Shown piece by piece: positions 5,784 through 61,326 of a DNA stretch of 64,000 nt. Position numbers and translations under genes: made by a program. The first letter of the stretch is position 1. Each line of letters opens with the position of its first letter. Under the pieces are notes generated by a model that was given only the letters and a program-made list of their open reading frames with translations, was not told the DNA's origin and did not search any database. This stretch comes from Paractinoplanes rishiriensis (lineage in GTDB: Bacteria > Actinomycetota > Actinomycetes > Mycobacteriales > Micromonosporaceae): assembly GCF_016862375.1 (NCBI RefSeq), contig NZ_BOMV01000023.1, positions 1 to 64,000 of the forward strand. Reading direction: 5' to 3'.

Positions 5784-7921
5784 GAAAACTGACGCAGATG
5801 GTGATGGTCGGCGTCGTCACGGCGGCGCTCGGTGCCGTCGGGGTGACCCACGCGCTGGCGGCCTCGTCCGGCACGCTGGTCAGTGCCGCCAACGGCAAGT
5901 GCCTCGACGTGACGAACGGGTCGACCACGAACGGCAACCAGCCGCAGATGTGGGCGTGCACGAGCGGCAACCAGAACCAGGTGTGGACGCTGGCCGACAA
6001 CGGGTCGGTGCAGGCCCGCGGCAAGTGCCTCGACGTGGCCGGCAACTCGACCGCGAACGGAGCCGTCGTGCATCTCTGGGACTGCTACGACACGGTGGGC
6101 ACCCAGAAGTGGACGCTGTCGGCCGGGCGGGACCTGGTCAACAACGCGGCCGGCAAGTGCCTGGACATCACGGACAACAATCTGGCGGACGGGGCGAAGC
6201 TCCAGCTCTGGGACTGCGGCGGCGGGGCCAATCAGAAGTGGACCTTCCCCACGGCTCCGCCCGGTGCGGGTAACCCCGATCTTGGACCCAACGTCACGAT
6301 CTTCGACCCCACGATGTCCGCGGCGACCATCCAGAGCCGGCTCAACACTGTCTTCAATTCCCAGGTCACCAACCAGTTCGGGAACGCGCGATACGCGCTG
6401 CTGTTCAAGCCGGGCAACTACAACGTGGACGTCAACGTCGGGTTCTTCACCCAGGTGGCCGGCCTCGGGCTGGTGCCGGACCAGGTGAACATCAACGGTC
6501 ACGTGCACGTCGAGGCGGACTGGTGGCCGGACGGGTCGCAGAACGCCACCCAGAACTTCTGGCGGGCCGCCGAGGGACTGTCGGTGACGCCCGGCGACGG
6601 CCTGGACCGGTGGTCGGTGTCGCAGGCCGCGCCGTACCGCCGCATGCACGTACGCGGAAACCTGGCCCTGTCCGACGGCGGCTGGTCGTCGGGCGGCTTC
6701 ATCGCCGACTCCAAGATCGACGGCCAGATCCAGTCCGGCTCGCAGCAGCAGTTCCTCACCCGGAACTCGGCGATGGGCAGTTGGAGCGGCTCGAACTGGA
6801 ACCAGGTCTTCGTGGGTTCGACCGGCGCACCGGGCAACAGCTTCCCGTCGCCGCCGTACACGACGATCGGAACGACGCCGGTCATCGCGGAGAAGCCTTA
6901 TCTGTACGTGGACAGCGCCGGCGCGTACCAGGTATTCGTTCCGGCCCTGCGATCGAACACGAGCGGCACCACGTGGCAGTCGGGCACGCCAGCCGGCACG
7001 TCGCTGCCGATCAGCACATTCCATGTGGTCAAGCCGGGTGACACCGCGTCCACGATCAACGCGGCCCTGGCAGCGGGTAAGAACTTGCTGGTCACGCCCG
7101 GTGTCTATCAGCTCAACCAGACACTGAACGTGACCCGGGCCGGCACCGTGGTGCTCGGCCTGGGGCTGGCGACGTTCGTCCCGGCCGGCGGGGTGGACGC
7201 GATGCACGTGGCCGACGTGGACGGGGTCCGGCTGGCCGGCGTGCTGTTCGACGCGGGCACCACGAACTCGAACACGCTGCTGCAGATCGGCCCGCCCGGC
7301 TCGTCGGCGTCGCACGCGGCCAACCCGACCGTGCTGTCCGACGTGTTCGTCCGGGTCGGCGGCTCGATCGCCGGCAGGGCGACGGTCAGCGTCCAGGTCA
7401 ACAGCGACCACGTGATCGGCGACCACGCCTGGATCTGGCGGGCCGACCACGGCAACGGCGGCACGGTCGGCTGGACTGTCAACACCGGCCGCAACGGGCT
7501 GATCGTCAACGGCGACAACGTGACGTTCTACGGCCTGTTCGTCGAGCACTACCAGCAATATCAGACGATCTGGAACGGCAACGGCGGCCGCACGTACTTC
7601 TATCAGAACGAGATGCCGTACGACCCGCCGAACCAGGCCGCGTACATGAACGGCTCGACGCAGGGCTGGGCGGCCTACAAGGTGGCCGACTCGGTGACCT
7701 CGCACGAGGCGTGGGGCCTGGGCAGCTACTGCTTCTTCAACGTGAACCCGTCGGTGGTGAACGCGCGCGCCTTCGAGGTACCGGTCAACGCGGGCGTCCG
7801 CTTCCGCAACATGGTGACGGTGTCGCTGGGCGGCGTCGGCACGATCAGCCGGGTCATCAACAACACCGGCGCCGCGGTGCACAGCTCCCATCAGGTGACG
7901 AGCATCGTCAGCGGTCCGTAA
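5780..7921 (+). CDS. Secreted ricin-B lectin plus right-handed beta-helix protein
   Basis: 713 residues. After a signal peptide (about 1-29) come three ricin-type beta-trefoil units (about 30-155), each with GKCLD and an NQxW/TQKW signature, a carbohydrate-binding CBM13-like module. The rest (about 170-713) resembles pectate-lyase-3/GH55-like beta-helix proteins, with PGNYNVDVNVGF, a first coil region, then a second (TINAALAAGKNLLVTPGVY). Relatives are often labelled adenylyl cyclase or coagulation factor 5/8 protein by transfer; I see no cyclase motif. Start overlaps the lyase stop, so both enzymes probably attack the same polymer. Confidence 0.75.
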   Translation: MRKLTQMVMVGVVTAALGAVGVTHALAASSGTLVSAANGKCLDVTNGSTTNGNQPQMWACTSGNQNQVWTLADNGSVQARGKCLDVAGNSTANGAVVHLWDCYDTVGTQKWTLSAGRDLVNNAAGKCLDITDNNLADGAKLQLWDCGGGANQKWTFPTAPPGAGNPDLGPNVTIFDPTMSAATIQSRLNTVFNSQVTNQFGNARYALLFKPGNYNVDVNVGFFTQVAGLGLVPDQVNINGHVHVEADWWPDGSQNATQNFWRAAEGLSVTPGDGLDRWSVSQAAPYRRMHVRGNLALSDGGWSSGGFIADSKIDGQIQSGSQQQFLTRNSAMGSWSGSNWNQVFVGSTGAPGNSFPSPPYTTIGTTPVIAEKPYLYVDSAGAYQVFVPALRSNTSGTTWQSGTPAGTSLPISTFHVVKPGDTASTINAALAAGKNLLVTPGVYQLNQTLNVTRAGTVVLGLGLATFVPAGGVDAMHVADVDGVRLAGVLFDAGTTNSNTLLQIGPPGSSASHAANPTVLSDVFVRVGGSIAGRATVSVQVNSDHVIGDHAWIWRADHGNGGTVGWTVNTGRNGLIVNGDNVTFYGLFVEHYQQYQTIWNGNGGRTYFYQNEMPYDPPNQAAYMNGSTQGWAAYKVADSVTSHEAWGLGSYCFFNVNPSVVNARAFEVPVNAGVRFRNMVTVSLGGVGTISRVINNTGAAVHSSHQVTSIVSGP

Positions 7922-50457: not shown

Positions 50458-51588
50458 TCAATTCCGGTCGTCGTGCCAGGCGGTTCGCAGGTCTCGCTTT
50501 GTCGTCCGCCACCAGTCGCGGAACGCGCCGGCCAGGTCGCGGAACGCCTGCCGGAAACCCGGGTCGTCCAAGCCCGCGCCCACCAACTCGAGCAGGCTGA
50601 ACGACCACATCGCCGGGGCGGCCGCCAGCGCCAGCGCCGCCAACCACCACCAGCCCGTGACCGCATGGCCGACCAGCAGCGCGGTCGCTGCCGCCACCGT
50701 GATCAGGGCGGCCACATTCGCGCGGCGCATCAGGGCCGGCAGCAGGGCCAGGCAGCGCCACGGCAGGCCGCCGGCCGGCACCAGCACCCGGGCGGCGAAA
50801 CCCGCCAGGACGAGGGCCAGCACCGCGGACAGCACGCGCGCGAAGATGCCGGCCGGAGGCCACCAGTGCCCGGCCACCAGCAGCAGGCAGACGACGATAG
50901 CGCCGGCGGTCAGGCCGCGGCGCAGGCCACTCAGGACGCCGCGGATCGGCCAGGTCAGCGACATCACGTCGGGGCGGGCCGGGTTCTGCCCCGCCACGTC
51001 GCGCAGGCCGCGCATCGAGCGGCGGACCCGCAGGCGTTCGGCGTCGAGCATGGCAATCAACCATTGGCCGTACGCGTTGCCGGGGTCCACGGCCAGCACG
51101 GCGCGGGCGGCCCGGGTGGCGGCCTCGCGGTGGCCGGCGTCGCGTTCCACGTCGGCCACCGTGAGCAGGGCCGCCACCGAGCCGGGGGCCAGGGCCAGAC
51201 CGTGCGCCGCGGCGGCCTGCGCGCGCGGGTAGGCGCGGGTCGCGGCCAGCGCGCGGGCCAGCACCAGGTGGCCGTCGGGGGCGTGCGGGGCCAGGCGTAC
51301 CGCCTCCTCGGCGGCGGCCACCGCGTCGCGTGAGCGGATCAGCAGGATCAGGCACTCGGCGCGTTCGGCGTGCGCGTCGGCCAGGCTCGGTGCCGCCGCC
51401 ACCGCGGCGCCGGCGGTGGACAGGGCGGCGGCGTAGTCCCGTTGCAGGCGCAGCACCGAGGCGAGCAGGGTCAGCAGGCGGCCGTCCGCGGGGGTGGCGG
51501 CCAGCGCGTCCCGGGCGGTGCGTTCGGCGTCGGCCAGGCGGCCCACCTCGGCCAGGCGGTGGGCCCGGTGGTAGGCGTCGGAGGTCAA
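50458..51588 (-). CDS. TPR protein with C-terminal membrane domain
   Basis: 376 residues. TPR-like helix pairs fill about 1-180 (YHRAHRLAEVGRLADAERTA, ALAATPADGRLLTLLASVLR, HGLALAPGSVAALLTVADVE). Five to six membrane helices follow (about 220-330), and a basic tail ends the protein (DWWRTTKRDLRTAWHDDRN). It may sit at the membrane and hold a partner. It overlaps the AAA ATPase gene by 4 bases and comes second, so they probably form one complex. Confidence 0.75.
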   Translation of the reverse strand: MTSDAYHRAHRLAEVGRLADAERTARDALAATPADGRLLTLLASVLRLQRDYAAALSTAGAAVAAAPSLADAHAERAECLILLIRSRDAVAAAEEAVRLAPHAPDGHLVLARALAATRAYPRAQAAAAHGLALAPGSVAALLTVADVERDAGHREAATRAARAVLAVDPGNAYGQWLIAMLDAERLRVRRSMRGLRDVAGQNPARPDVMSLTWPIRGVLSGLRRGLTAGAIVVCLLLVAGHWWPPAGIFARVLSAVLALVLAGFAARVLVPAGGLPWRCLALLPALMRRANVAALITVAAATALLVGHAVTGWWWLAALALAAAPAMWSFSLLELVGAGLDDPGFRQAFRDLAGAFRDWWRTTKRDLRTAWHDDRN

Positions 51589-52982
51589 GGGCGGTGCTTG
51601 CGCTTCTTGAGGTACGCCGCCAAGTCGTCGTACTCGCCGCTCTCGTTCGCGAACATCGCCACGTTACGGGCGGTGGCGAACCAGCCGTCGGTGGACGGGC
51701 GGACCTCGCGGGCGGCGGCCAGCATGTCCGCCTGGGCGATCATGCGGATCTCGCCGGTGGCGATCGAGTCGCGCATGGCGAACTCGGCGGCGGTCTCGCA
51801 GACGTGGGCCAGGTCGGCGCCGGAGTAGTGCTCGGTGGCGTCGGCGACCCTGCCCAGGTCGACGCCGGCCACCGGCCGGTCGCGCAGGTGATACTCCAGG
51901 ATGGCGGCGCGCGCGGCCTTGTCGGGTGGGAGGACCAGCAGCGTACGGTCGAGCCGGCCGGGACGGCGCAGCGCCGAGTCGATGTCCCACGGGGCGTTCG
52001 TGGCGGCCAGCACGAAGACGCCGTCGTTGTTGGCGTCGACGCCGTCCAGTTCGGTGAGCAGCTGGTTGACGACGGTGCGCATGGACGACGAGTTGAGCTG
52101 GCTGCGCTTGTGGCCGAGCGCGTCGATCTCGTCGAGGAACAGCACGCACGGCGCGTGCCCGCGGGCCGACTGGAACAGGTCGTGCAGGTTGCGCTCGGAG
52201 CTGCCGATCCACATGTTCAGCACGTCGGTGATGGTGAGCGAGATGAACGCGGCGCCCATCTCGCCCGCGACCGCGCGGGCCAGGAACGTCTTGCCGCAGC
52301 CGGGCGGGCCGTAGAGCAGCAGGCCGCCGCGCAGGCTCTTGCCGAACAGCGACCGCAGCTTCGGGTTGCGCAGCGGACCGAGGAACGACACCTCGAGGCG
52401 CTTCTTGACCTCCTGCATGCCGCCCACGTCGGCCAGCGTGATCGTCGACTTCTCGACGTCGAACGTGCGGTCGGCGTGCCCCTCAACCGGATCCGGCTCG
52501 TCGTCGGCTTTGGCAAACCGCGGCGGCACGATGTCACCGAGCTCCTGCTCCATAGCCGCCCAGTCAACCGAATTGTCCGAGTTAGAGGGAGAATTCGGGC
52601 GGTGGGCGGAAAATCCGCCGGGAGGGGTGGCCGCAGGCGGGATGGAGACGCCGCCGGGAGGGATGGGCGCGGAAGGGGTGGAGGCGCCGGTGGGAGGGGT
52701 GGACCCGGAGGGAGAGGTGGACGCGGCGGGAGAGGTGGACCCGGGAGGGGCCGGCGGAGCGCCACCCGGGGCGGCGGTCGCACCGCCCAGGGCGGCTGTC
52801 ATCAGGCGCTGGGCGGACTCGTTTTCCGGCTCGCGGGCCAGGACCTGAGCGGCGTGCCCGATCGCCTCGGCGCCCCGGCCCGCGGTGACCAGCAGCTCGG
52901 CCAGGTGCAGGCGCAGCGGCAGGTCGTCGGGCCGGGCCTGCACCGCGGCGGTCAGGCTGTCGATCAGGGGCGAGTCGCTCAT
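51585..52982 (-). CDS. AAA ATPase with N-terminal TPR domain (Cdc48/Vps4-like)
   Basis: 465 residues. A short TPR-like domain (about 1-65) is joined by a Pro/Gly/Ser/Thr linker (about 66-135) to an AAA module: Walker A GPPGCGKTFLARAV (about 225), Walker B VLFLDEID (about 280), and the second region of homology with Arg fingers in ALRRPGRLDRTLL. It probably unfolds or remodels proteins or complexes in a hexamer. Overlap with the TPR-membrane gene suggests docking at the membrane. Substrate unknown. Confidence 0.82.
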   Translation of the reverse strand: MSDSPLIDSLTAAVQARPDDLPLRLHLAELLVTAGRGAEAIGHAAQVLAREPENESAQRLMTAALGGATAAPGGAPPAPPGSTSPAASTSPSGSTPPTGASTPSAPIPPGGVSIPPAATPPGGFSAHRPNSPSNSDNSVDWAAMEQELGDIVPPRFAKADDEPDPVEGHADRTFDVEKSTITLADVGGMQEVKKRLEVSFLGPLRNPKLRSLFGKSLRGGLLLYGPPGCGKTFLARAVAGEMGAAFISLTITDVLNMWIGSSERNLHDLFQSARGHAPCVLFLDEIDALGHKRSQLNSSSMRTVVNQLLTELDGVDANNDGVFVLAATNAPWDIDSALRRPGRLDRTLLVLPPDKAARAAILEYHLRDRPVAGVDLGRVADATEHYSGADLAHVCETAAEFAMRDSIATGEIRMIAQADMLAAAREVRPSTDGWFATARNVAMFANESGEYDDLAAYLKKRKHRP

Positions 52983-53058: not shown

Positions 53059-54042
53059 CTACGACGGCCTTCGGTAACCGGCGATGGTCGCCCGGTCGAT
53101 CGTTGCCATCCGCACGTGGTCGCCCGTGTGTGGGGCGTGCACCACCAGGTTGCCGCCGATATAGAGGGCCACGTGGTGCAGGCTGCCGGGGTAGTAGAAC
53201 ACCAGGTCACCCGGTTTCAGCTCACTGCGTGACACCGACCGGCCGGAGGCCCACTGGTCTTTCGTGTAGTGCTCCAGGTGCACACCGACGCTGGCCCACG
53301 CCACCTTGGTCAGGCCCGAGCAGTCGAAGCTGTTCGGACCCTCGGCGCCGAAGACGTACGGCTTGCCGATCAGGTCGCACGCCTTCTGCGCGGCGCGGCC
53401 GCCCTTGTCGTTGCTGTAAGTCACCGGGCACGCGCCCAGGCGCAGCGGACCGTCGCTCTTGTCGGCCGCACCGTACGCCTGGATCCTGAGCTTTTGAAGT
53501 TTGCCGATCTCGGACTCGATCGCCTTCTTCTTCTGCGCGAGGTCGGCGTCGCGAGCCGCCACCGCCTCGGTCAGCACCTCGAGATCGGCCTTCATCCCGG
53601 CGTATTTGTCGCGCAGTTTCGCCACTCCGGCGATCTGCGCGTGCTGGTGCCGGGACAGCTGGTCGAGGTAGGTCAGCTTGTCGGTCAGCCCGGTCGGCGA
53701 CCCGCTGATCAGCATGGCGTTGAACGCGTTCGGCGCACCCTGCTTGTAGGCGTCGACCGCGAGGCCGCGCACCTGCGAGAGCGCCACGTCCACCTGCACC
53801 TGCAGCGGGGTGAGCTGGGCGGACAGCTTCTTCATCTGGGCCTGGTTCTTGATCAGCTTGCCGTGGACGTCGTTGTACTGCTCGATGACCGGCTCGAGCT
53901 CGTTCCACTGCTTGTCGATCTGCGCCTCGATGGCGGACGGCGAGGGTGCGGCGTGCGCGGCGAAGGGCCCGGTGGTGAGAACGGTGCCGACTACCGCGAC
54001 ACCGCAGACCAGACCGCGCAGAACTGCCCCGATCCGTTTCAC
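53059..54042 (-). CDS. Secreted NlpC/P60 peptidoglycan endopeptidase with coiled coil
   Basis: 327 residues. A signal peptide (about 1-30, ending AHAA) is followed by a long coiled coil (about 33-185) and the NlpC/P60 domain (about 205-327). The catalytic Cys lies in SFDCSGLT, with the His in LHHVALYIG and another His in VVHAPHTG. It resembles RipA-type endopeptidases that cut peptidoglycan stems during growth. GTG start at 54042. Its 5' leader holds a stable hairpin; no riboswitch is claimed. Confidence 0.87.
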   Translation of the reverse strand: MKRIGAVLRGLVCGVAVVGTVLTTGPFAAHAAPSPSAIEAQIDKQWNELEPVIEQYNDVHGKLIKNQAQMKKLSAQLTPLQVQVDVALSQVRGLAVDAYKQGAPNAFNAMLISGSPTGLTDKLTYLDQLSRHQHAQIAGVAKLRDKYAGMKADLEVLTEAVAARDADLAQKKKAIESEIGKLQKLRIQAYGAADKSDGPLRLGACPVTYSNDKGGRAAQKACDLIGKPYVFGAEGPNSFDCSGLTKVAWASVGVHLEHYTKDQWASGRSVSRSELKPGDLVFYYPGSLHHVALYIGGNLVVHAPHTGDHVRMATIDRATIAGYRRPS

Positions 54043-54184
54043 GTGGGTGCGTAGTCCTTTCCGTCGAGCCGCCGACGGCGGTGGCTCGTCAGATCGGACG
54101 GTTGACCGATGGGGGGCTGCCGAACCGGAGAACACCGTACTCCTGATCAACCAGATATATGAAGTCGGAGCCGCCGGAAACTGC
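54043..54184 (-). other. Structured 5' leader of the NlpC/P60 gene
   Basis: A 142-bp gap between the protease stop and this gene has a strong stem at 54066-54087 (GAGCC and GCCG pair with their complements around ACGG, one weak pair) and a GGAAAGGAC near 54055 some 12 bases before the start. Cell-wall hydrolases of actinomycetes often have a c-di-AMP riboswitch leader, but the consensus is not clearly present here. It is left as an unassigned structure. Confidence 0.3.
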
Positions 54185-55093
54185 TCAGAGTGGCCAGGCA
54201 TCCAGCGCGCGGTCGAGCCACGGCACCACCAGGATCACGGTGGGTAGCACCAGCAGCCCGGTCGCGGCCACCGCCACCGCCGTGTTCAGCAGCGCCGGCC
54301 GGCGGTCCGGGCGGGTGAGCCGGGCCAGCCTCCGGGCGCGTGCCGCACCCATCGGGTCCGGCCCGATTTCCTCCGCCAGGGGGACGGCGTCGGTCAGCCT
54401 TTCGAGCGCGGCCCGCAGCGGGTCCGGGCCCGTGCGGCGACGTGCGGCATCGTCGGCCACCATCTCCAGGAGCAGGTGTACGGCGTCCAGCGGCGCCCGG
54501 CTGCGCAGCGGACCCGGCACGGCACGATAGAAGGCGGTGAACGACTCCAGCACCCACTCGTGGCGATGCCGGAGATGAGCCTGTTCGTGCGCCAGGACGG
54601 CGTCGACCTGTGGCCGGTCGAGCACCCGGAGCACGCCGTCGCTGAGCACCACCCGCGGTTCGCGCCCGGGCACGCAGTACGCGAGCGGCAGCGCACCGTC
54701 GAGCACCCGCAGGTTGTCCACGCCGAGTTCCTGCCGCCGCTCGGCGCGATCGAGCAGGTCGACGAGCAGCCGGTGCCGGGTGCGCCGCTGCCGGGAACGC
54801 TTGGTCACCCCGTACAGGCAAAAAAGCAGTCGGGTGACGACGACCGCCGCTACCGTCAGCGCACCGACCAGGGCCGCGGTCGCCACGAACCTGCCCGAAC
54901 CGGCCGCGCGGGTGAGTTCCTCGGGCGCCGCCAGCACCACGCCGAGGGCGGAGAGCACCGCGGCCAGGGTGATCGCCTGCCAGAGCAGGACGGCGGCGGC
55001 GGGCGCCCGGTCGGGCCAGCGGGCGGCGGCCAGCGGACCCGGCACCAGCAGCGAGAGCGTCAACCCGAGCGCGCCCAACAGCAGCGCCGTCAT
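54185..55093 (-). CDS. M56-family (BlaR1-like) membrane metallopeptidase
   Basis: About 302 residues with four to five membrane helices and the zinc motif HEQAHLRHRHEW (HExxH), Glu beyond. This is the BlaR1-type sensor-protease partner of BlaI repressors, though the penicillin-binding sensor domain of BlaR1 is absent. It lies after the BlaI-like gene in the same direction. The ATG at 55093 fits the family start MTALLLGALGLTL. It may cleave the repressor when a signal arrives. Confidence 0.85.
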   Translation of the reverse strand: MTALLLGALGLTLSLLVPGPLAAARWPDRAPAAAVLLWQAITLAAVLSALGVVLAAPEELTRAAGSGRFVATAALVGALTVAAVVVTRLLFCLYGVTKRSRQRRTRHRLLVDLLDRAERRQELGVDNLRVLDGALPLAYCVPGREPRVVLSDGVLRVLDRPQVDAVLAHEQAHLRHRHEWVLESFTAFYRAVPGPLRSRAPLDAVHLLLEMVADDAARRRTGPDPLRAALERLTDAVPLAEEIGPDPMGAARARRLARLTRPDRRPALLNTAVAVAATGLLVLPTVILVVPWLDRALDAWPL

Positions 55094-55139
55094 CCGTCCA
55101 ACCGCCCCGCCCACCACCCCAAAATCGAATGGCAAGCCA

Positions 55140-55487
55140 TCATTTCCGGTTCGCAGCCTCGATCGCGGCGGCCAGGGCGTCGGGCGGCAACTGGCCGACG
55201 AAGTAGGCGAGCGCGGCGTCCTGGTCGGGCGTGGCGGACAGCGCGTCGAGCATCACCGCGGCGGTCATCTCCTCGCGGGTCTGCGCCGGCGCATAGCGGT
55301 AGGCGCGGTCGGCCCGCTGCTGGGTGACCACGCCCTTCTTGGCGAGCCGGTCCAGCACGGTCATCACGGTCGTGTACGCGAGGTCGCGGTCCCGGCTGAG
55401 CCGCTCGTGCACCTGCCGCACGGTCAGCGGCCCGGTCGCGTCCCACAACTGCGTCATGACCTCGCGTTCGAGGTCCCCGAGTGCCAT
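55140..55487 (-). CDS. BlaI/MecI/CopY-family repressor
   Basis: About 115 residues. The winged helix-turn-helix is ALGDLEREVMTQLWD, VRQVHERLSRDRDLAYTTVM and TVLDRLAKKGVV. The C-terminal dimer helices follow. ATG at 55487; a GTG at 55496 is a close alternative. Divergent from cydA with BlaI-like dyads in the shared gap, it probably represses both itself and the cytochrome bd operon, and is inactivated through the M56 protease. Confidence 0.88.
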   Translation of the reverse strand: MALGDLEREVMTQLWDATGPLTVRQVHERLSRDRDLAYTTVMTVLDRLAKKGVVTQQRADRAYRYAPAQTREEMTAAVMLDALSATPDQDAALAYFVGQLPPDALAAAIEAANRK

Positions 55488-55526
55488 GTGCACCACTCTA
55501 CTGCCCAGGTAGTACTACATGGGTCG

Positions 55527-55562
55527 TACTACACGGCGTAGTATCTACTACGCAGCGTCGTA
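55527..55562. promoter_or_regulatory. Two BlaI-type operators shared by blaI and cydA
   Basis: TACTACACGGCGTAGTA (55527-55543) is a perfect dyad of 6-bp arms, and TACTACGCAGCGTCGTA (55546-55562) is one with a mismatch pair. The TACTAC/GTAGTA halves match BlaI-family operators. A third TACTAC half-site sits at 55513-55518. They lie between the start codons of blaI (55487) and cydA (55582), close to both promoters. Confidence 0.8.
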
Positions 55563-55581
55563 CAGGATCGGGGGTTTTGCC

Positions 55582-56928
55582 TTGGACGTGCTCGACCTGA
55601 CCCGGCTCCAATTCGCCGTGGTCACCATCTACCACTACTTCTTCGTGCCGCTGTCGATCAGCCTGGCCGTGACCTGCGCCGGCCTCGAGATCGCCTGGCA
55701 GCGCACCCGCAACGAGCGCTACCTGCGCCTGGTCACGTTCGTCGGCAAGCTGCTGATCGTCACGTTCGCGGTCGGCGTGGTAACCGGGCTCGTGCAGGAG
55801 TTCCAGTTCGGCATGGGCTGGAGCGCGTTCGCCACCTTCTACGGCGACGTGTTCGGGCCGACCCTGGCGATCGAGGGCATGCTCGCGTTCTTCCTGGAGG
55901 CCACGTTCCTGGCGCTCTGGTATTTCGGCCGCGACCGCCTGCCGCGGCTGCTGCACACGGCGACGATCGTCGTGGTGGCCGTCGGCACGATGCTGTCGGC
56001 GTTCATCATCCTGGCGGCCAACAGCTTCATGCAAAACCCGATCGCGTACGAGTTGGACCCGGTCACCGGCCGGGCGCGTCTGACCTCGTTCGCCGACCTG
56101 ATGCTCAACAAGGTCAACCTGGCCGCCTTCCCGCACACCCTCTCCGGCGCGGCCATGGTCGGCGGCGCGCTGCTGTTGGCCATCGCGGTGTGGCGCCCGT
56201 TCTCCCCGGACAACCGCACCCTGGCCAAGCTCGGCGCCTGGATCATGCTGGCCGGCGGGGCGGCCACCGCGCTGACCGGCGACCACCTCGGCAAGGTGAT
56301 CACCGAGGTGCAGCCGATGAAGATGGCCGCCGCCGAGGCCCTGTACGCGACCACCAGCGGCGCGCCGTTCTCGCTGTTCGCCACCGGCGACCCGCTGCCC
56401 GAGTTATCGCTGGAGGTGCCCTGGCTGCTCTCGATCCTGGCCAAGGGCTCACCCGGAGCCACCGTCGAGGGCATCAACGACCTGCAGGCCCGGTACGCCG
56501 CGGAGTTCGGTCCCGGCAGCTACGTGCCGATGATCCCGGTCGCGTTCTGGTCGTTCCGCCTGATGATCGGCCTCGGCATGCTGGCCGCCGCGGTTGCCGC
56601 CGTCTACCTGTGGCGCACCCGCCGCGACCGTTCCGCGCCGCCGTGGCTGCTGCGCTGGCTGCCGCTGATCCCGCTGCTGCCCACCGCCGCCAACTCGCTC
56701 GGCTGGATTTTCACCGAGACCGCCCGGCAGCCGTGGATCGCGTTCGGCCTCTCGACCGTCGAGCAGGGCATCTCGCCCACCCTGACCAGTGCCGAGGTCA
56801 TCGCCTCGCTGGCCGGTTTCACGATCGTCTACGGGATTCTCGCGGTCGTCTGGTTCCGCCTGGTCCGGCACCTGGCCCGGCAGCCAAGCCAGCTTCCCGA
56901 GACCGCTGAGCCCGCCCCCGTCTACTGA
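55582..56928 (+). CDS. cydA: Cytochrome bd ubiquinol/menaquinol oxidase subunit I
   Basis: 448 residues. The first helix begins MDVLDLTRLQFAVVTIYHYFF with His18 for haem b595, and PHTLSGAAMVGG holds His for haem b558. FWSFRLMIGLGM supplies the axial Met, and GWIFTETARQPW is the C-terminal family motif. The short Q-loop is of the actinomycete type. TTG at 55582 has GGGGG 7 bases upstream; an ATG at 55519 would overlap the operators. It begins a cydAB-cydDC operon, made under low oxygen. Confidence 0.93.
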   Translation: MDVLDLTRLQFAVVTIYHYFFVPLSISLAVTCAGLEIAWQRTRNERYLRLVTFVGKLLIVTFAVGVVTGLVQEFQFGMGWSAFATFYGDVFGPTLAIEGMLAFFLEATFLALWYFGRDRLPRLLHTATIVVVAVGTMLSAFIILAANSFMQNPIAYELDPVTGRARLTSFADLMLNKVNLAAFPHTLSGAAMVGGALLLAIAVWRPFSPDNRTLAKLGAWIMLAGGAATALTGDHLGKVITEVQPMKMAAAEALYATTSGAPFSLFATGDPLPELSLEVPWLLSILAKGSPGATVEGINDLQARYAAEFGPGSYVPMIPVAFWSFRLMIGLGMLAAAVAAVYLWRTRRDRSAPPWLLRWLPLIPLLPTAANSLGWIFTETARQPWIAFGLSTVEQGISPTLTSAEVIASLAGFTIVYGILAVVWFRLVRHLARQPSQLPETAEPAPVY

Positions 56929-56938
56929 GGAGCACCCG

Positions 56939-57919
56939 ATGGTCACGTTCTGGTTCGCCGTCGTCGTACTCGCCTGGGTGTTGTTCTTCGTTCTGGAAGG
57001 TTTTGACTTCGGGGTCGGGGTGCTCGCCCCGCTGCTCGGCCGCGACGACCACGAACGCGGCGCCGCCATCCGCACGATCGGCCCGTTCTGGGACGGCAAC
57101 GAGGTCTGGCTGGTGGCCGCGGTCGGCGTCACCTTCGCCGCCTTCCCCGCCTGGTACGCGGCGCTGCTGTCCGGGCTCTACCTCCCGATGGCCGCGCTGC
57201 TGCTGATGCTGGCGATCCGCGGCGTGGCCCTGGAGTTCCGCGGCAAGGGCGACGGCGTTTCCTGGCGCCGCCGCTGCGACCTGGCCCTGTCGGCGTCGTC
57301 GGCCGCCATCGTGCTGCTCTGGGGCGCTCTGCTGGCGGTGTTCGTACGCGGCCTCGCGCTGGGTCCCGACGGCGCGGTCCAGGGCGACGGCCTGTCCCGC
57401 AGCCTCACCCCGCTGCTCACGCCGGCCGCCGCCCTCGGCGCGCTGGCCGCCTTCTTTGCCGCGGTGCTGCTCGGCGCAACCTTCCTCAGCCTGCGCACGA
57501 GCGGCCCGGTCCGCCGCCGGGCCCGTCACCTGGCGCGGTGGCTGGGCGCCGGCGGCGCGGCCGGCCTGGTGCTCGCCGGCATCGGAACCGGTTCGCGGGT
57601 GGTCCTGGCCGTGGCGGTGCTGGCCTTCGCGACCGGCCTGCTGTCCCGCTACGGCCGGGAGGCGCTGGCGTTCGCGGTCACCGCGGCCGGGGTGACCACC
57701 GGCGTGGTGGCCGTCTTCACCGCCAACGGCCGGGTCGTCCTGCCCAGCACCCTGGACCCGGCGTGGTCGCTGACCATGCACAACGCGGCCGCGACGCCCG
57801 GTGCGCTGACGCTGATCACGTACGCCGGGGTGCTCATCCTGCCCGGCGTGCTCGTCTACCAGGCGTACTCCTACTTCGTCTTCCGGCGCCGGGTGGCCAG
57901 CGAGCGGGTGCCCACGTGA
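56939..57919 (+). CDS. cydB: Cytochrome bd oxidase subunit II
   Basis: 326 residues, about eight to nine membrane helices. It starts MVTFWFAVVVLAWVLFFVLEGFDFGVG, the conserved CydB N-terminus, with LLGRDDHERGAAIRTIGPFWDGNEVWLV next. It carries no haem but completes the oxidase. It starts 10 bases after cydA; its stop overlaps the start of cydDC (GTGA). Confidence 0.93.
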   Translation: MVTFWFAVVVLAWVLFFVLEGFDFGVGVLAPLLGRDDHERGAAIRTIGPFWDGNEVWLVAAVGVTFAAFPAWYAALLSGLYLPMAALLLMLAIRGVALEFRGKGDGVSWRRRCDLALSASSAAIVLLWGALLAVFVRGLALGPDGAVQGDGLSRSLTPLLTPAAALGALAAFFAAVLLGATFLSLRTSGPVRRRARHLARWLGAGGAAGLVLAGIGTGSRVVLAVAVLAFATGLLSRYGREALAFAVTAAGVTTGVVAVFTANGRVVLPSTLDPAWSLTMHNAAATPGALTLITYAGVLILPGVLVYQAYSYFVFRRRVASERVPT

Positions 57920-60900
57920 CCCGCCCGGTCGATCCCCGGCTGCTGCGGCACGCCCGGACCAGCCGCGCCGGCATCGCCGCGCTGGCGCTGACCGGCGCCG
58001 GCCAGGCCACGGCCACTCTGGCGGTGGCGGTCGCGCTGAGCGTCCTGGTCGGCGACGGCTCCGGGTGGGCGTTGGGGCTGCTCCTGGCGGCGGCCGTGGT
58101 CCGCGCCGCGCTGGCCTGGACCGAACAGGTGGTCGCCCGCCGCACCGCCGCCCGCGTCACCGACGAGCTCCGCCGGTCGCTGCTGCGCGCCCTCCCCCGC
58201 CGCGGCCCCGCCTGGGTGGCGAACTTCGGCCCCGGCCGCCTGACCACGGTGCTCACCACCGGCCTGGACGCCCTGCGCCCGTGGTTCGGCGGCTACCTGC
58301 CGTCGCTGGTCCTAGGCGTGCTGCTGCCGCCACTGGTAGTGCTGGCGATGGCGGTGGTGGACCCGGCGTCGGCCCTGATCACCCTGCTGACGCTGCCGCT
58401 GATCCCGGTGCTGGGCGCCCTGATCGGCTGGGCGACCGAGGCGAGCGCCCGGCGGCGCTGGCAGGCGGACGCGAGGTTGGCCGGCCACTTCCTGGACGTG
58501 GTGCAGGGCTTGCCGACGCTGCGCATCTTCGGCCGGGCGTCCCGGCAGACCGCCGTCGTGGCCGACCTGACCGACCAGCACCGCTCGGCGACGCTGCGGG
58601 TCCTGCGGGTGGCGTTCCTGTCGTCGACGGCCCTGGACCTGGTGGGGACGCTGTCGGTCGGCCTGATCGCGGTGGAGGCCGGCCTGCGGGTCGCGGCGGG
58701 CACCATGTCGCTGGCTCCCGCCCTGCTGGTGATCCTGCTGGCCCCGGAGGCGTACCGGCCACTGCGCGAGATGGCGGCCCGCTACCACGCGTCAACGGCC
58801 GCGGCGGCCGCCATCGCGGACGTGGACGAGATCCTGCAGCCGGCGGCAAGCGGCTTTGCCGCCCCGGTCGAAGGGCCCGGCGTCGTCGTGGCCGGCCTGC
58901 GGGCCCGGTATCCGGAAGCGACCACCGATGCGCTCGCCCTGCCCGCCCTGACGGTCCGCCCCGGCGAGATCGTCGCGTTGCGCGGCCCGTCCGGCGCCGG
59001 CAAGACCACGGCGCTGCGGGTGCTGTCCGGCCTGCACCCCGCCGCGGCCGGCACCTTCACGGCAGGCCACCCGCTCTATCTGCCCCAGCGCCCCACCCTG
59101 CCACACGCCCGAACCGTCGCCGACGCCTTCGAGCCCGGCACCCCGGCCACCGAGATCACCGCGGCGCTGGCAGCGCTCGACATCGACCTGCCCGCCACCA
59201 CGCCCCTCGGCGAACACGGCACCGGCATCTCCGCCGGCCAACGACAGCGCCTGGCCCTGGCCGCCCTGCTCCACCGCGCCACCCGGACCCCGGCCACCCT
59301 CCTCCTCGACGAACCCACCGCCCACCTGGACCCCACCACCGAACGCCGCGTCATCACCCACTTGCGCGCCGCGGCCCAGGCGGGTTCCGCAATCCTGGTG
59401 GTGGCCCACCGCCCGGCCTTGCTGGCAGCCGCCGACCGCGCGGTAACCCTCCATCCGCCCCGGCACGCCAGCCCACCGCGCCACACCGAGCAACCAACCC
59501 AGCCGCCGCCTCCCGCCCCTCCCTCCGCGCCGCCAACCCACACCCCACTCCCGACCGGGCCGCCAACCCCCACCCCTCCTCCACATCCCACCGCGCCGCC
59601 GCCGTCCGGCATTTCACCGCCCCAATCCCACGATATTTCGGATATGTCAGGCGAAACGGCCGCGCGTGACGCCCCCGCCCCGCAACGGTGGTCGGCGTGG
59701 CGGCGCCCCTGGGCCGCCGTCCTACTCGGGAGCGCCTCCAACCTCGCCGCCCTCCTCCTCACCGGTGCCGCTGCCTGGCTGCTGGTCCGTGCCGCCTCGA
59801 TGCCCCCGGTACTCACGCTCTCCGCGGCGGTCGTCCTGGTCCGGGGCAGCGCCGTCGCTCGCCCCCTGCTGCGCTACCTCGAAAGGCTCCTGGCGCACGA
59901 CGTGGCGTTCGCGAATCTGGGCAGGCGCCGGTCCGGGGTCTACGCGGCCCTGATCCCGCGCCTGCCCGGCCCTCACCTCCGCCGTCGCGGCGACCTGCTC
60001 ACCCGGATAGTCGACGACGTGGACGCCAAGATCGACGGCCTGCTCCGCGGGCTGCTCCCGGTCCTGGCCGCGGCCACCACGCTGATCGTGACCGCCACGG
60101 TCGCCGTCTGGATCGCGCCGGCGACCGCACTGCCGCTGACCGCCGGGCTGCTGATCACCGCCGTCCTGGCACCCGCCATGGCCGCACGGCAGGCCGCCCG
60201 CGAGGACGCCGGAACCGCCACGGCCCGGGCTCGCCTGCGCGACGCCATGGTGGAGACCGTCGCCGGCCTCGAGGAACTCCCCGGCACCGAGGTCCCCGAA
60301 CGCCGCAGCCGAACCCTCGCCCGCCTCGAATCCCGGGCCGCGCACGCCGCGGGCCGGGCCGCCGCGCTGGCGCACCTGGGGTGGGGCGTGGCCGTGGCGG
60401 GCACCGCTTACGCCCTCCAGCAGGCCGCCGTTCTGACCCCGGAATGGACGGCCGTGGTGCTGCTGGCCGTGGTAGCCCTGGGCGAACCAGCCCTCACCCT
60501 TCCCGACGCCGCCGTAGCCCGCCGCCGAGCCGCCGGCGCCGCCCACCGCATCGCCGCCCTCACCACCGAGCCGCCGGCCGTGGGGTTCCCGTCGACGTCC
60601 CACAACCCAAAGACAGACCTGGGGACGATTTCGGTACGCGGCCTGAGCGCCGGCTGGGATCCGGCGCGCCCGCCGGTGCTGCGCGATCTCGACCTCGACC
60701 TGCCGGCCGGCTCCCGGGTCGCGGTGGTCGGTCGTTCCGGTTCCGGCAAGTCCACCCTGGGCGCCGTCCTGGCCCGGCTGCTCGACCCGCGCGCCGGCCA
60801 CCTCACCGCGGGCGGCCGGGACCTGCGATCGTTCCCCGAGACCGCGGTCCGTGGCCGCATCGTCCTGGTGGGCGACGACACCGGCCACATTTTCGCCTCG

Positions 60901-61326
60901 ACCGTACGGGAAAACCTCCGCCTGGCCCGCCCCACCGCCACCGACCCCGAACTCCGCGCTGCGCTGGCCCGGGTGCGTCTGGACGGCTGGCTGGCCGGTC
61001 TCCCGTACGGCCTCAACTCCTGGCTCGGCACCGGCGGAAGCACCATGTCGGGTGGTCAGGCCCGCCGCTTCGCCACCGCGCGCGCCCTGCTGGCCGACCC
61101 CGAACTGCTGATACTCGACGAGCCGACCGAGGGCCTCGACGCCCCGACCGCCGAGGCGCTGATGGCCGACCTGCTGACCGCCACCACCGGCCGCACCGTG
61201 CTGCTGCTAACCCACCGCACCGAGGGCCTGGACCGCGTGGACCGCACCCTGCACCTGACCGCCGGCCGCCTGCAAACATGCACGCCCGCAACAATGCAGC
61301 CGGCGCGAGCCGGCGCGGCCCAATGA
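57916..61326 (+). CDS. cydDC: Fused CydDC ABC transporter for cytochrome bd assembly
   Basis: 1136 residues, a fusion of CydD and CydC, as often in actinomycetes. The first half has an ABC membrane domain, Walker A GPSGAGKT (about 357), signature ISAGQRQRLALA (about 437) and Walker B LLLDEPTAHLD (about 462). A Pro/Thr/His-rich linker (about 514-575) joins the second half with Walker A GRSGSGKS (about 937), MSGGQARRFATA (about 1044) and LLILDEPTEGLD (about 1064). It exports thiols or moves haem so that cytochrome bd matures. GTG overlaps the cydB stop. Confidence 0.9.
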   Translation: MTRPVDPRLLRHARTSRAGIAALALTGAGQATATLAVAVALSVLVGDGSGWALGLLLAAAVVRAALAWTEQVVARRTAARVTDELRRSLLRALPRRGPAWVANFGPGRLTTVLTTGLDALRPWFGGYLPSLVLGVLLPPLVVLAMAVVDPASALITLLTLPLIPVLGALIGWATEASARRRWQADARLAGHFLDVVQGLPTLRIFGRASRQTAVVADLTDQHRSATLRVLRVAFLSSTALDLVGTLSVGLIAVEAGLRVAAGTMSLAPALLVILLAPEAYRPLREMAARYHASTAAAAAIADVDEILQPAASGFAAPVEGPGVVVAGLRARYPEATTDALALPALTVRPGEIVALRGPSGAGKTTALRVLSGLHPAAAGTFTAGHPLYLPQRPTLPHARTVADAFEPGTPATEITAALAALDIDLPATTPLGEHGTGISAGQRQRLALAALLHRATRTPATLLLDEPTAHLDPTTERRVITHLRAAAQAGSAILVVAHRPALLAAADRAVTLHPPRHASPPRHTEQPTQPPPPAPPSAPPTHTPLPTGPPTPTPPPHPTAPPPSGISPPQSHDISDMSGETAARDAPAPQRWSAWRRPWAAVLLGSASNLAALLLTGAAAWLLVRAASMPPVLTLSAAVVLVRGSAVARPLLRYLERLLAHDVAFANLGRRRSGVYAALIPRLPGPHLRRRGDLLTRIVDDVDAKIDGLLRGLLPVLAAATTLIVTATVAVWIAPATALPLTAGLLITAVLAPAMAARQAAREDAGTATARARLRDAMVETVAGLEELPGTEVPERRSRTLARLESRAAHAAGRAAALAHLGWGVAVAGTAYALQQAAVLTPEWTAVVLLAVVALGEPALTLPDAAVARRRAAGAAHRIAALTTEPPAVGFPSTSHNPKTDLGTISVRGLSAGWDPARPPVLRDLDLDLPAGSRVAVVGRSGSGKSTLGAVLARLLDPRAGHLTAGGRDLRSFPETAVRGRIVLVGDDTGHIFASTVRENLRLARPTATDPELRAALARVRLDGWLAGLPYGLNSWLGTGGSTMSGGQARRFATARALLADPELLILDEPTEGLDAPTAEALMADLLTATTGRTVLLLTHRTEGLDRVDRTLHLTAGRLQTCTPATMQPARAGAAQ
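61268..61281. repeat. Left copy of a 14-bp direct repeat flanking the PssE/PssD block
   Basis: GCCTGCAAACATGC lies near the cydDC end and recurs exactly at 62349-62362. Between the copies are only the two glycosyltransferase-related genes on the minus strand. It might be chance or a mark of insertion. Confidence 0.4.

Follow-up and report, generated by a model that had tools for sequence, protein, structure and literature searches.

A likely respiratory switch: a BlaI-type repressor and a BlaR1-like membrane protease divergent from the cytochrome bd operon of Paractinoplanes rishiriensis and its relatives

The 64,000-nucleotide stretch of DNA analysed here (the window; positions 1 to 64,000 of contig NZ_BOMV01000023.1, assembly GCF_016862375.1) belongs to the genome of Paractinoplanes rishiriensis, a member of the Micromonosporaceae assembled to 10.9 Mb in 181 contigs, and carries a BlaI-type repressor gene back to back with the operon for cytochrome bd, a backup terminal oxidase. 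Leftward from a 94-bp intergenic gap lie blaI and then the gene of a membrane zinc protease; rightward lie cydA, cydB and a fused cydDC [Table 1]. An initial annotation, made from the sequence alone, had described a blaI-M56 pair divergent from cydA-cydB-cydDC with two TACTAC/GTAGTA dyads between them, and had proposed that the pair is wired to cytochrome bd. The divergent order and the intervening dyads are confirmed by domain matches and by the sequence itself, with the correction that only the first dyad (O1) is perfect, the second (O2) carrying one mismatch. BlaI contains the Penicillinase_R winged-helix domain (PF03965) at 90.6 bits, above the curated cut-off of 22.6, and its nearest solved structure is 2g9w (expectation value, E, of 1.7e-30), an entry titled conserved hypothetical protein which we take to be the BlaI of M. 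tuberculosis. The cydA gene at 55582 is the sole PF01654 match in the whole genome.

The two dyads start 19 bp apart, and as in other members of the BlaI/MecI/CopY group a TAC/GTA dyad lies near the promoter of blaI itself. The sequence TAGTAT, predicted to be the -10 element of cydA, is found in 20 loci (L003-L022). Additional half-sites lie at 55499, 55509, 55513 and 55523 and could represent further dyads with N4 spacing on the blaI side; blaI may be leaderless, its predicted -10 ending 7 bases ahead of the ATG. A strict form of the tandem element, GT[AC]GTACTAC-N5-GTAGTAT[CG]TACTAC-N5-GT[AC]GTA, was found in 37 of the 52 divergent blaI-cydA loci (divergons) tested, namely the 20 loci just mentioned and 17 named ones (L057-L073), some named loci duplicating genomes of the other locus set. 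It lies within the gap in all 37 of these main-clade loci, 35 of which have distinct surroundings, and of the 38 Micromonosporaceae divergons examined, 37 retain the tandem operator. The 15 loci lacking the strict form all come from outside the Micromonosporaceae; the 13 that were inspected (eight from other-family regions of the class and five named) have arms of the same kind throughout, several again 19 bp apart. Upstream of blaI, a dyad scoring at least 10/12 was found in 77 of 80 named loci (the best 80 of at least 589), against a background of 9 in 4000 mononucleotide shuffles and 4 in 3156 stretches taken from elsewhere in these loci.

Table 1. Features of the blaI-cyd divergon in the window
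Feature	Position	Strand	Remarks
Membrane zinc protease, BlaR1-like, without penicillin sensor, 302 amino acids	54185..55093	-	HExxH; ATG at 55093 placed from relatives
blaI, winged-helix repressor, 115 amino acids	55140..55487	-	ATG start at 55487; PF03965, 90.6 bits, E 1.1e-25
Predicted blaI -10, TAGAGT	55495..55500	-	Predicted by eye
Putative extra half-sites, TACTGC/GTAGTA and TACTAC/GTCGTA, blaI side	55499..55528		Read from the sequence
Putative operator dyad O1, TACTAC-ACGGC-GTAGTA	55527..55543		Perfect; sole exact copy in the genome; conserved
Predicted cydA -10, TAGTAT	55539..55544	+	Within the operator pair; predicted by eye
Putative operator dyad O2, TACTAC-GCAGC-GTCGTA	55546..55562		One mismatch; conserved
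cydA	55582..56928	+	TTG start; PF01654, E 2.2e-135
cydB	56939..57919	+	PF02322, E 7.2e-81; TIGR00203
cydDC, one reading frame fusing CydD and CydC	about 57916..61326	+	TIGR02857 and TIGR02868 above cut-off; GTG start predicted

The 38th family divergon, L212 (G014, gap 6886-7075), stood outside the strict-element test. Its blaI-M56 pair is divergent from cydABDC, its CydA differs (42%), and its gap holds two copies of a variant dyad, TTCTAC-N5-GTAGAA, which also precedes two cydA genes of family f19 (L295 and L296). The divergent layout may have evolved on more than one occasion, in this instance with an operator of its own.

The gene order recurs well beyond the window. A BlaI search of 150 genomes of the family matched 134, and in all 20 family loci with the closest BlaI, the window included, cydA is divergent from blaI; these loci take in all 15 genomes of the window's genus, and the protease is present in 19 of them, the remaining one being cut by a contig end. 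A second layout, in which cydABDC, or just cydDC, lies downstream of blaI-M56 in the same orientation, was found in 17 of 20 further family regions, a dyad at 8/10 or better preceding blaI in 15 of these 17 co-directional loci. Sixteen more genera of the family yielded one divergent locus, L212, and 15 loci that lack cyd, of which one lies on a contig of 3.3 kb. Judged by the BlaI examined, linkage to cyd is found in 18 of 35 family genera, which were sampled by choice of high-scoring BlaI matches rather than at random (for genus g4 the genus-best match was not used). In the class, BlaI is detected at 1e-20 or better in 148 of 296 genomes, and divergons occur, in four families, in 8 of the 20 regions fetched outside the mycobacteria-like family; a locus of family f19 with a distant CydA (29%) and CydB near blaI (L272) was counted as unlinked. 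Among the 80 named loci, 24 are divergent and one is co-directional. These 25 belong to Actinoplanes and allies, Dactylosporangium, Mangrovihabitans, Pseudokineococcus, Kineococcus, Microlunatus, Actinomycetospora and one strain labelled Streptomyces, and span the Micromonosporaceae, Kineosporiaceae, Propionibacteriaceae and Pseudonocardiaceae besides that strain and an Actinomycetales metagenome-assembled genome. The other 55 are unlinked and, with one exception, come from Mycobacterium, Rhodococcus, Nocardia, Gordonia, Tsukamurella and their kin. The initial annotation had named absence of the arrangement from related genomes as a refutation of its proposal; this check does not refute it, the arrangement recurring in relatives.

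The strongest evidence for the putative link between BlaI and cyd comes from genomes in which blaI-M56 lies away from cyd. Twenty-five such genomes, from Mycobacterium, Rhodococcus, Nocardia, Gordonia, Tsukamurella and other genera, were searched for CydA, which was found in 24 (M. tilburgii, whose cydA matches in short pieces only, being kept in the count). A perfect TACNAC-N5-GTNGTA stands within 300 bp upstream of cydA in 23 of the 24, and the last genome (Ornithinimicrobium) has two copies at 9/10 before cydA; for each promoter, at most 1 in 300 mononucleotide shuffles equalled the score. In Tsukamurella, cydA has two perfect dyads 19 bp apart, as in Actinoplanes. The same dyad lies ahead of a putative Rv1303-like gene/atp operon in M. 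triplex and M. chelonae (gene names assigned by eye), and since the Rv1303-like/atp target is bound by BlaI in electrophoretic mobility shift assays (PMC12565901; papers are cited here by PMC number from excerpts of their text), the reading of the motif as a BlaI operator is supported. Gene order across several families and the presence of the same dyad at unlinked cydA genes together lend strong support to the proposal that the BlaI/M56 pair is wired to cytochrome bd.

A further set of 18 cydA loci, from five families and from genomes without close linkage, was compared for sites of the repressor Rex. In family f20 (Streptomyces-like), Rex sites of the form TGTGAA-N4-TTCACA are present at 8 of 8 cydA promoters, and no dyad scores above 8/10. 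In family f18, where blaI lies elsewhere, near-dyads at 9/10, often paired, occur in all five cydA promoters (L291, L292, L293, L294 and L283) and possibly constitute a variant operator; none of the five matches the main Rex pattern, and L283 matches a looser one. The remaining five loci have neither dyad nor Rex site by the patterns used, two of them being the f19 genes that carry TTCTAC-N5-GTAGAA. No Rex-like site is present in the window between 55300 and 55700, so that control of its cydA promoter by Rex was rejected, nor in the 151 bp before blaI of the 25 linked loci; a single loose match was found among the 24 unlinked Mycobacteriales-type cydA promoters. The idea of BlaI as a substitute for a missing Rex was also rejected, since a check of 16 genomes found Rex-type genes (PF06971) in 13, that of the window included.

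Within the window genome the perfect 17-mer TACTAC-N5-GTAGTA has one copy. Allowing one mismatch adds O2 and two other places, against 33 for a reversed control pattern, and the loose pattern TACNAC-N5-GTNGTA is found at 8 places, against 23 for its reversed control. The dyad is distinctive by its position, not by its genome-wide number; a chance origin of the dyads was rejected on genome count, conservation and shuffles taken together. Strict and loose patterns pooled give seven off-target places, six of which (L197, L198, L199, L203, L205 and L206) lie inside long reading frames, as drawn by our own open reading frame script rather than by a gene finder. The seventh, L204 (G000:C12:3303-3319), is a loose dyad between two reading frames. 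With this distribution, and with none at the atp operon, a wider BlaI regulon in this genome was set aside. No dyad was found near the ATP-synt_C gene, which encodes the c subunit of ATP synthase (C7:575153-575335), the nearest dyad-like place on that contig being at 502350, and cyd therefore stands alone here as the sole convincing target that the patterns suggest. No beta-lactamase gene was found under the same dyad either: the three PF13354 genes lie on contigs C103, C5 and C57, all without a dyad (genes for penicillin-binding proteins were not searched).

The protease matches PF01435 (M48) at 35 bits, above the cut-off of 20.3, and none of the NCBIfam models above cut-off. Across the 51 members of an alignment that includes the window, PF01435 is matched in all 51 and PF05569 (M56/BlaR1), at E 0.01 or better, in 46. 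In 115 aligned proteases, again with the window, there is no variation in the HExxH motif (H169/E170/H173), in a Glu and an Asp further downstream or in a Trp-Gln pair, and the cysteine of an AYC[LV]PG sequence is kept in 99%. The best VIA match of an AlphaFold2 model of the protease (mean predicted local distance difference test score 91.8) is BlaR1 (8exs), with Z 11.6 over 224 residues and a root-mean-square deviation of 5.1, a Z that, for helical proteins, the VIA notes rank as uncertain; the scores of BepA and ZMPSTE24 are almost the same. No structure matched at E 0.001 or better by Foldseek alone, and the fold call rests on VIA. Like BlaR1 and MecR1, the protein has an HExxH zinc protease in a helical module, whose placement in the membrane is predicted. 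It has no C-terminal penicillin-binding sensor, ending after its last long helix with no such Pfam match. The absence of a penicillin sensor claimed by the initial annotation is thereby upheld, on the length of 302 amino acids, on the alignment of model residues 2-249 with the membrane and protease part of BlaR1 only (BlaR1 residues 1-293), and on all 115 aligned proteases being shorter than 420 amino acids. Judging from the model, the protein looks like the protease half of BlaR1, standing formally between M48 and M56.

A tree of BlaI plus protease, computed by a fast method, comprised 108 rows, the window among them, from 135 labelled blaI loci; a first tree had 107 rows without the window row (L052 and L213 failed the filters, and 26 were removed by hand). 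The nearest named relatives of the window pair are Paractinoplanes and Actinoplanes species. Some rows from the window's genus and family are identical to those of Actinoplanes sp. NBRC 103695 and Dactylosporangium roseum, which identifies the family as Micromonosporaceae. An unlinked mycobacterial-nocardial clade (29 rows, support 100) is nested in a 72-row fork holding 43 divergent rows. The Shimodaira-Hasegawa-like approximate likelihood ratio (SH-aLRT) support is 85 for this fork and 38 and 78 for inner forks; in the 107-row tree, the forks around the unlinked clade have 94 and 89. Two changes account for the 18 co-directional rows and five for the linked/unlinked character, the same count in both trees. 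This topology fits, with moderate support, a mycobacterial line that lost the linkage but retained the operator at cydA. The 108-row tree places L212 at the end of a long branch. The window genome also encodes a second, distant BlaI (L002, G000:C63:3169-3501; 43% identical) with its own M56-like neighbour, a pair that branches far from the cyd-linked one.

Other genes of the neighbourhood are less constant. An NlpC/P60 peptidoglycan-hydrolase-like gene (53059-54201, minus strand) lies downstream of the protease gene in the same direction, and is adjoined by an AAA ATPase with a TPR-like stretch (51585-52982, minus strand). A scan of 32 divergon loci found the NlpC/P60 gene after the protease gene in 16, all from close relatives, for which reason a lasting operon with it was set aside; an AAA ATPase match falls inside the fetched locus in 12 of the 32, with variable adjacency. 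Within the fused reading frame at the other end of the locus (57916-61326, plus strand), a proline-rich stretch joins CydD to CydC.

We consider it likely that this locus is a locally wired respiratory switch, in which BlaI represses cyd at the tandem dyads and the BlaR1-like protease relieves that repression. Because the dyads cover the predicted cydA -10 and flank the blaI promoter, BlaI dimers bound at the two 17-bp sites would repress both cydAB-cydDC and blaI itself. The protease would be the inducer, responding to a signal perceived within or across the membrane; the likeliest signals are hindered electron transfer along the main respiratory route and damage to the membrane or envelope. 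The protease would then inactivate BlaI by proteolysis, allowing cytochrome bd to be made, and renewed synthesis of BlaI and protease would reset the switch. For the signal, the initial annotation had named redox or envelope stress as candidates. In relatives with blaI-M56 away from cyd, a related BlaI would still control cydA through a similar operator. On this proposal the pair probably controls respiration rather than drug resistance.

The published record on mycobacteria is in line with parts of this scheme. The premise of the initial annotation, that BlaI/M56 pairs are known for beta-lactam resistance, proves incomplete, as M. tuberculosis BlaI is said to bind at the promoters of both cytochrome bd and ATP synthase, with reference to Sala 2009 (PMC5473688); the same source states that mycobacterial BlaR proteins lack the sensor. 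Two atp-operon genes are predicted BlaI targets (PMC7924339), and the Rv1303 homologue of M. smegmatis is transcriptionally downregulated by BlaI (PMC12565901). In the latter species KCN raises cydA 388-fold, and expression in a crp1 mutant still reaches 30% of that induced value (PMC7739888), leaving scope for a second input such as a repressor; the main text of that paper does not mention BlaI. The BlaI-cyd link is therefore already known in one species, according to these excerpts. New, as far as our searches went, are the conservation of this link, the divergon and the contrast to Rex: among the hits listed, with most subscription journals outside the coverage, no title or abstract described a blaI-M56/cyd divergon or a BlaI-Rex contrast.

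Several observations weigh against the proposed switch or narrow its reach. The BlaI examined does not adjoin cyd in 17 of the 35 family genera, and no close BlaI was found in 3 of the 7 genomes of genus g44. The window protease scores 20.5 bits against PF05569, under the cut-off of 31, and the loose dyad falls below its reversed control in all 7 genomes searched, that is, without enrichment in number. The dyad has been lost at blaI itself in Gordonia and Williamsia (3 of the 80 named loci), being kept there at cydA (L155, L156 and L159 versus L090, L116 and L088). The cydA genes L279 (f14), L280 (f32) and L285 (f19) have no good dyad, Rex site or variant, and the genome of L280 carries an 11/12 dyad at blaI (L273) but none at cydA, so that the link is absent there. 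Finally, Crp1 strongly drives cydAB in M. smegmatis (PMC7739888), and BlaI is consequently not the sole input in that species.

The best-surviving alternative shares the repression of cyd by BlaI and differs in the signal: the protease would answer cell-wall damage, through beta-lactams or peptidoglycan fragments, and cytochrome bd would form part of an envelope-stress response. Amoxicillin-clavulanate raises both blaI-blaR and cydAB in M. tuberculosis (PMC5473688), and the wall-hydrolase gene that follows the protease gene in half of the divergon loci scanned would suit such a response; that neighbour is, however, confined to close relatives, the protease lacks the penicillin-binding sensor, and the contigs that carry the three PF13354 genes showed no dyad. 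We regard a wall-damage signal as rather unlikely. Far less probable is that other factors (Crp, Rex or sigma factors) mainly regulate the divergon, BlaI controlling its own gene only and the dyads being there for blaI. The Rex-type gene of the window genome, the action of Crp1 in M. smegmatis and the f32 genome with a dyad at blaI alone would be accommodated, but not the dyad at 23 of 24 unlinked cydA promoters despite blaI lying elsewhere, nor the retention of O2, on the cydA side, in 37 of 37 loci, nor the lack of a Rex-like site in the window gap and before blaI in the linked loci. That BlaI acts with RNA polymerase as an activator or anti-activator at cydA, where the conserved 19-bp spacing might serve to arrange more than a simple block to transcription, is the least credible of the three, given that the dyads overlap the predicted cydA -10, that BlaI lowers transcription of the Rv1303 homologue and that BlaI/MecI/CopY proteins are repressors.

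With cytochrome bd, mycobacteria and related bacteria can withstand respiratory inhibitors and low oxygen. Should a sensorless membrane protease indeed relieve the repression of this oxidase, then a gene pair filed under antibiotic resistance is a respiratory sensor, the divergons offer simple systems for finding the signal of the pair, and the arrangement helps to explain why the same oxidase has different regulators among relatives, Rex in some and BlaI in others. A bolder reading, which we hold to be somewhat short of probable, is that control of cytochrome bd was the original and dedicated role of BlaI-M56 in much of the Actinomycetota, the pair serving where others use Rex, that the membrane part of the protease senses the respiratory chain and the protease then cleaves the repressor, and that control of beta-lactamase was a later side line. 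The state sensed would perhaps be that of quinol or membrane energization, for example, and the residues involved might be the near-invariant cysteine of AYC[LV]PG, close to the active-site motif, or the invariant Trp-Gln pair of the N-terminal helices.

Set beside known systems, the window pair resembles the BlaI-BlaR pair of M. tuberculosis (Rv1846c-Rv1845c) in having a related BlaI, provided that 2g9w (E 1.7e-30) is, as we take it, that protein. Both also have a sensorless membrane protease, on the word of PMC5473688, and the same kind of dyad precedes blaI and cydA in the other mycobacteria examined, M. tuberculosis itself being outside the set. The pairs of the mycobacteria examined differ in lying away from cyd and in having further sites, whereas the window has a cyd divergon and no other convincing site was found in its genome; of the mycobacterial respiratory regulon, the dyad at cydA is shared and that at the atp operon is not. 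With the BlaR1-BlaI divergon of S. aureus the window has in common a repressor-protease pair, a metalloprotease fold (8exs, Z 11.6) and, as expected by analogy, cleavage of the repressor (PMC9834060); it departs from it in a protease without penicillin-binding sensor and in a target that is a terminal oxidase rather than a beta-lactamase or PBP2a. Rex of Streptomyces is likewise a cydAB repressor answering the respiratory state (PMC7739888), but it is another regulator with another operator, present at 8 of 8 cydA promoters of family f20 and absent at the window. Crp1 of M. smegmatis, lastly, has the same target, cydAB (PMC7739888), which it serves as a cyclic AMP-dependent activator and not as a protease-relieved repressor.

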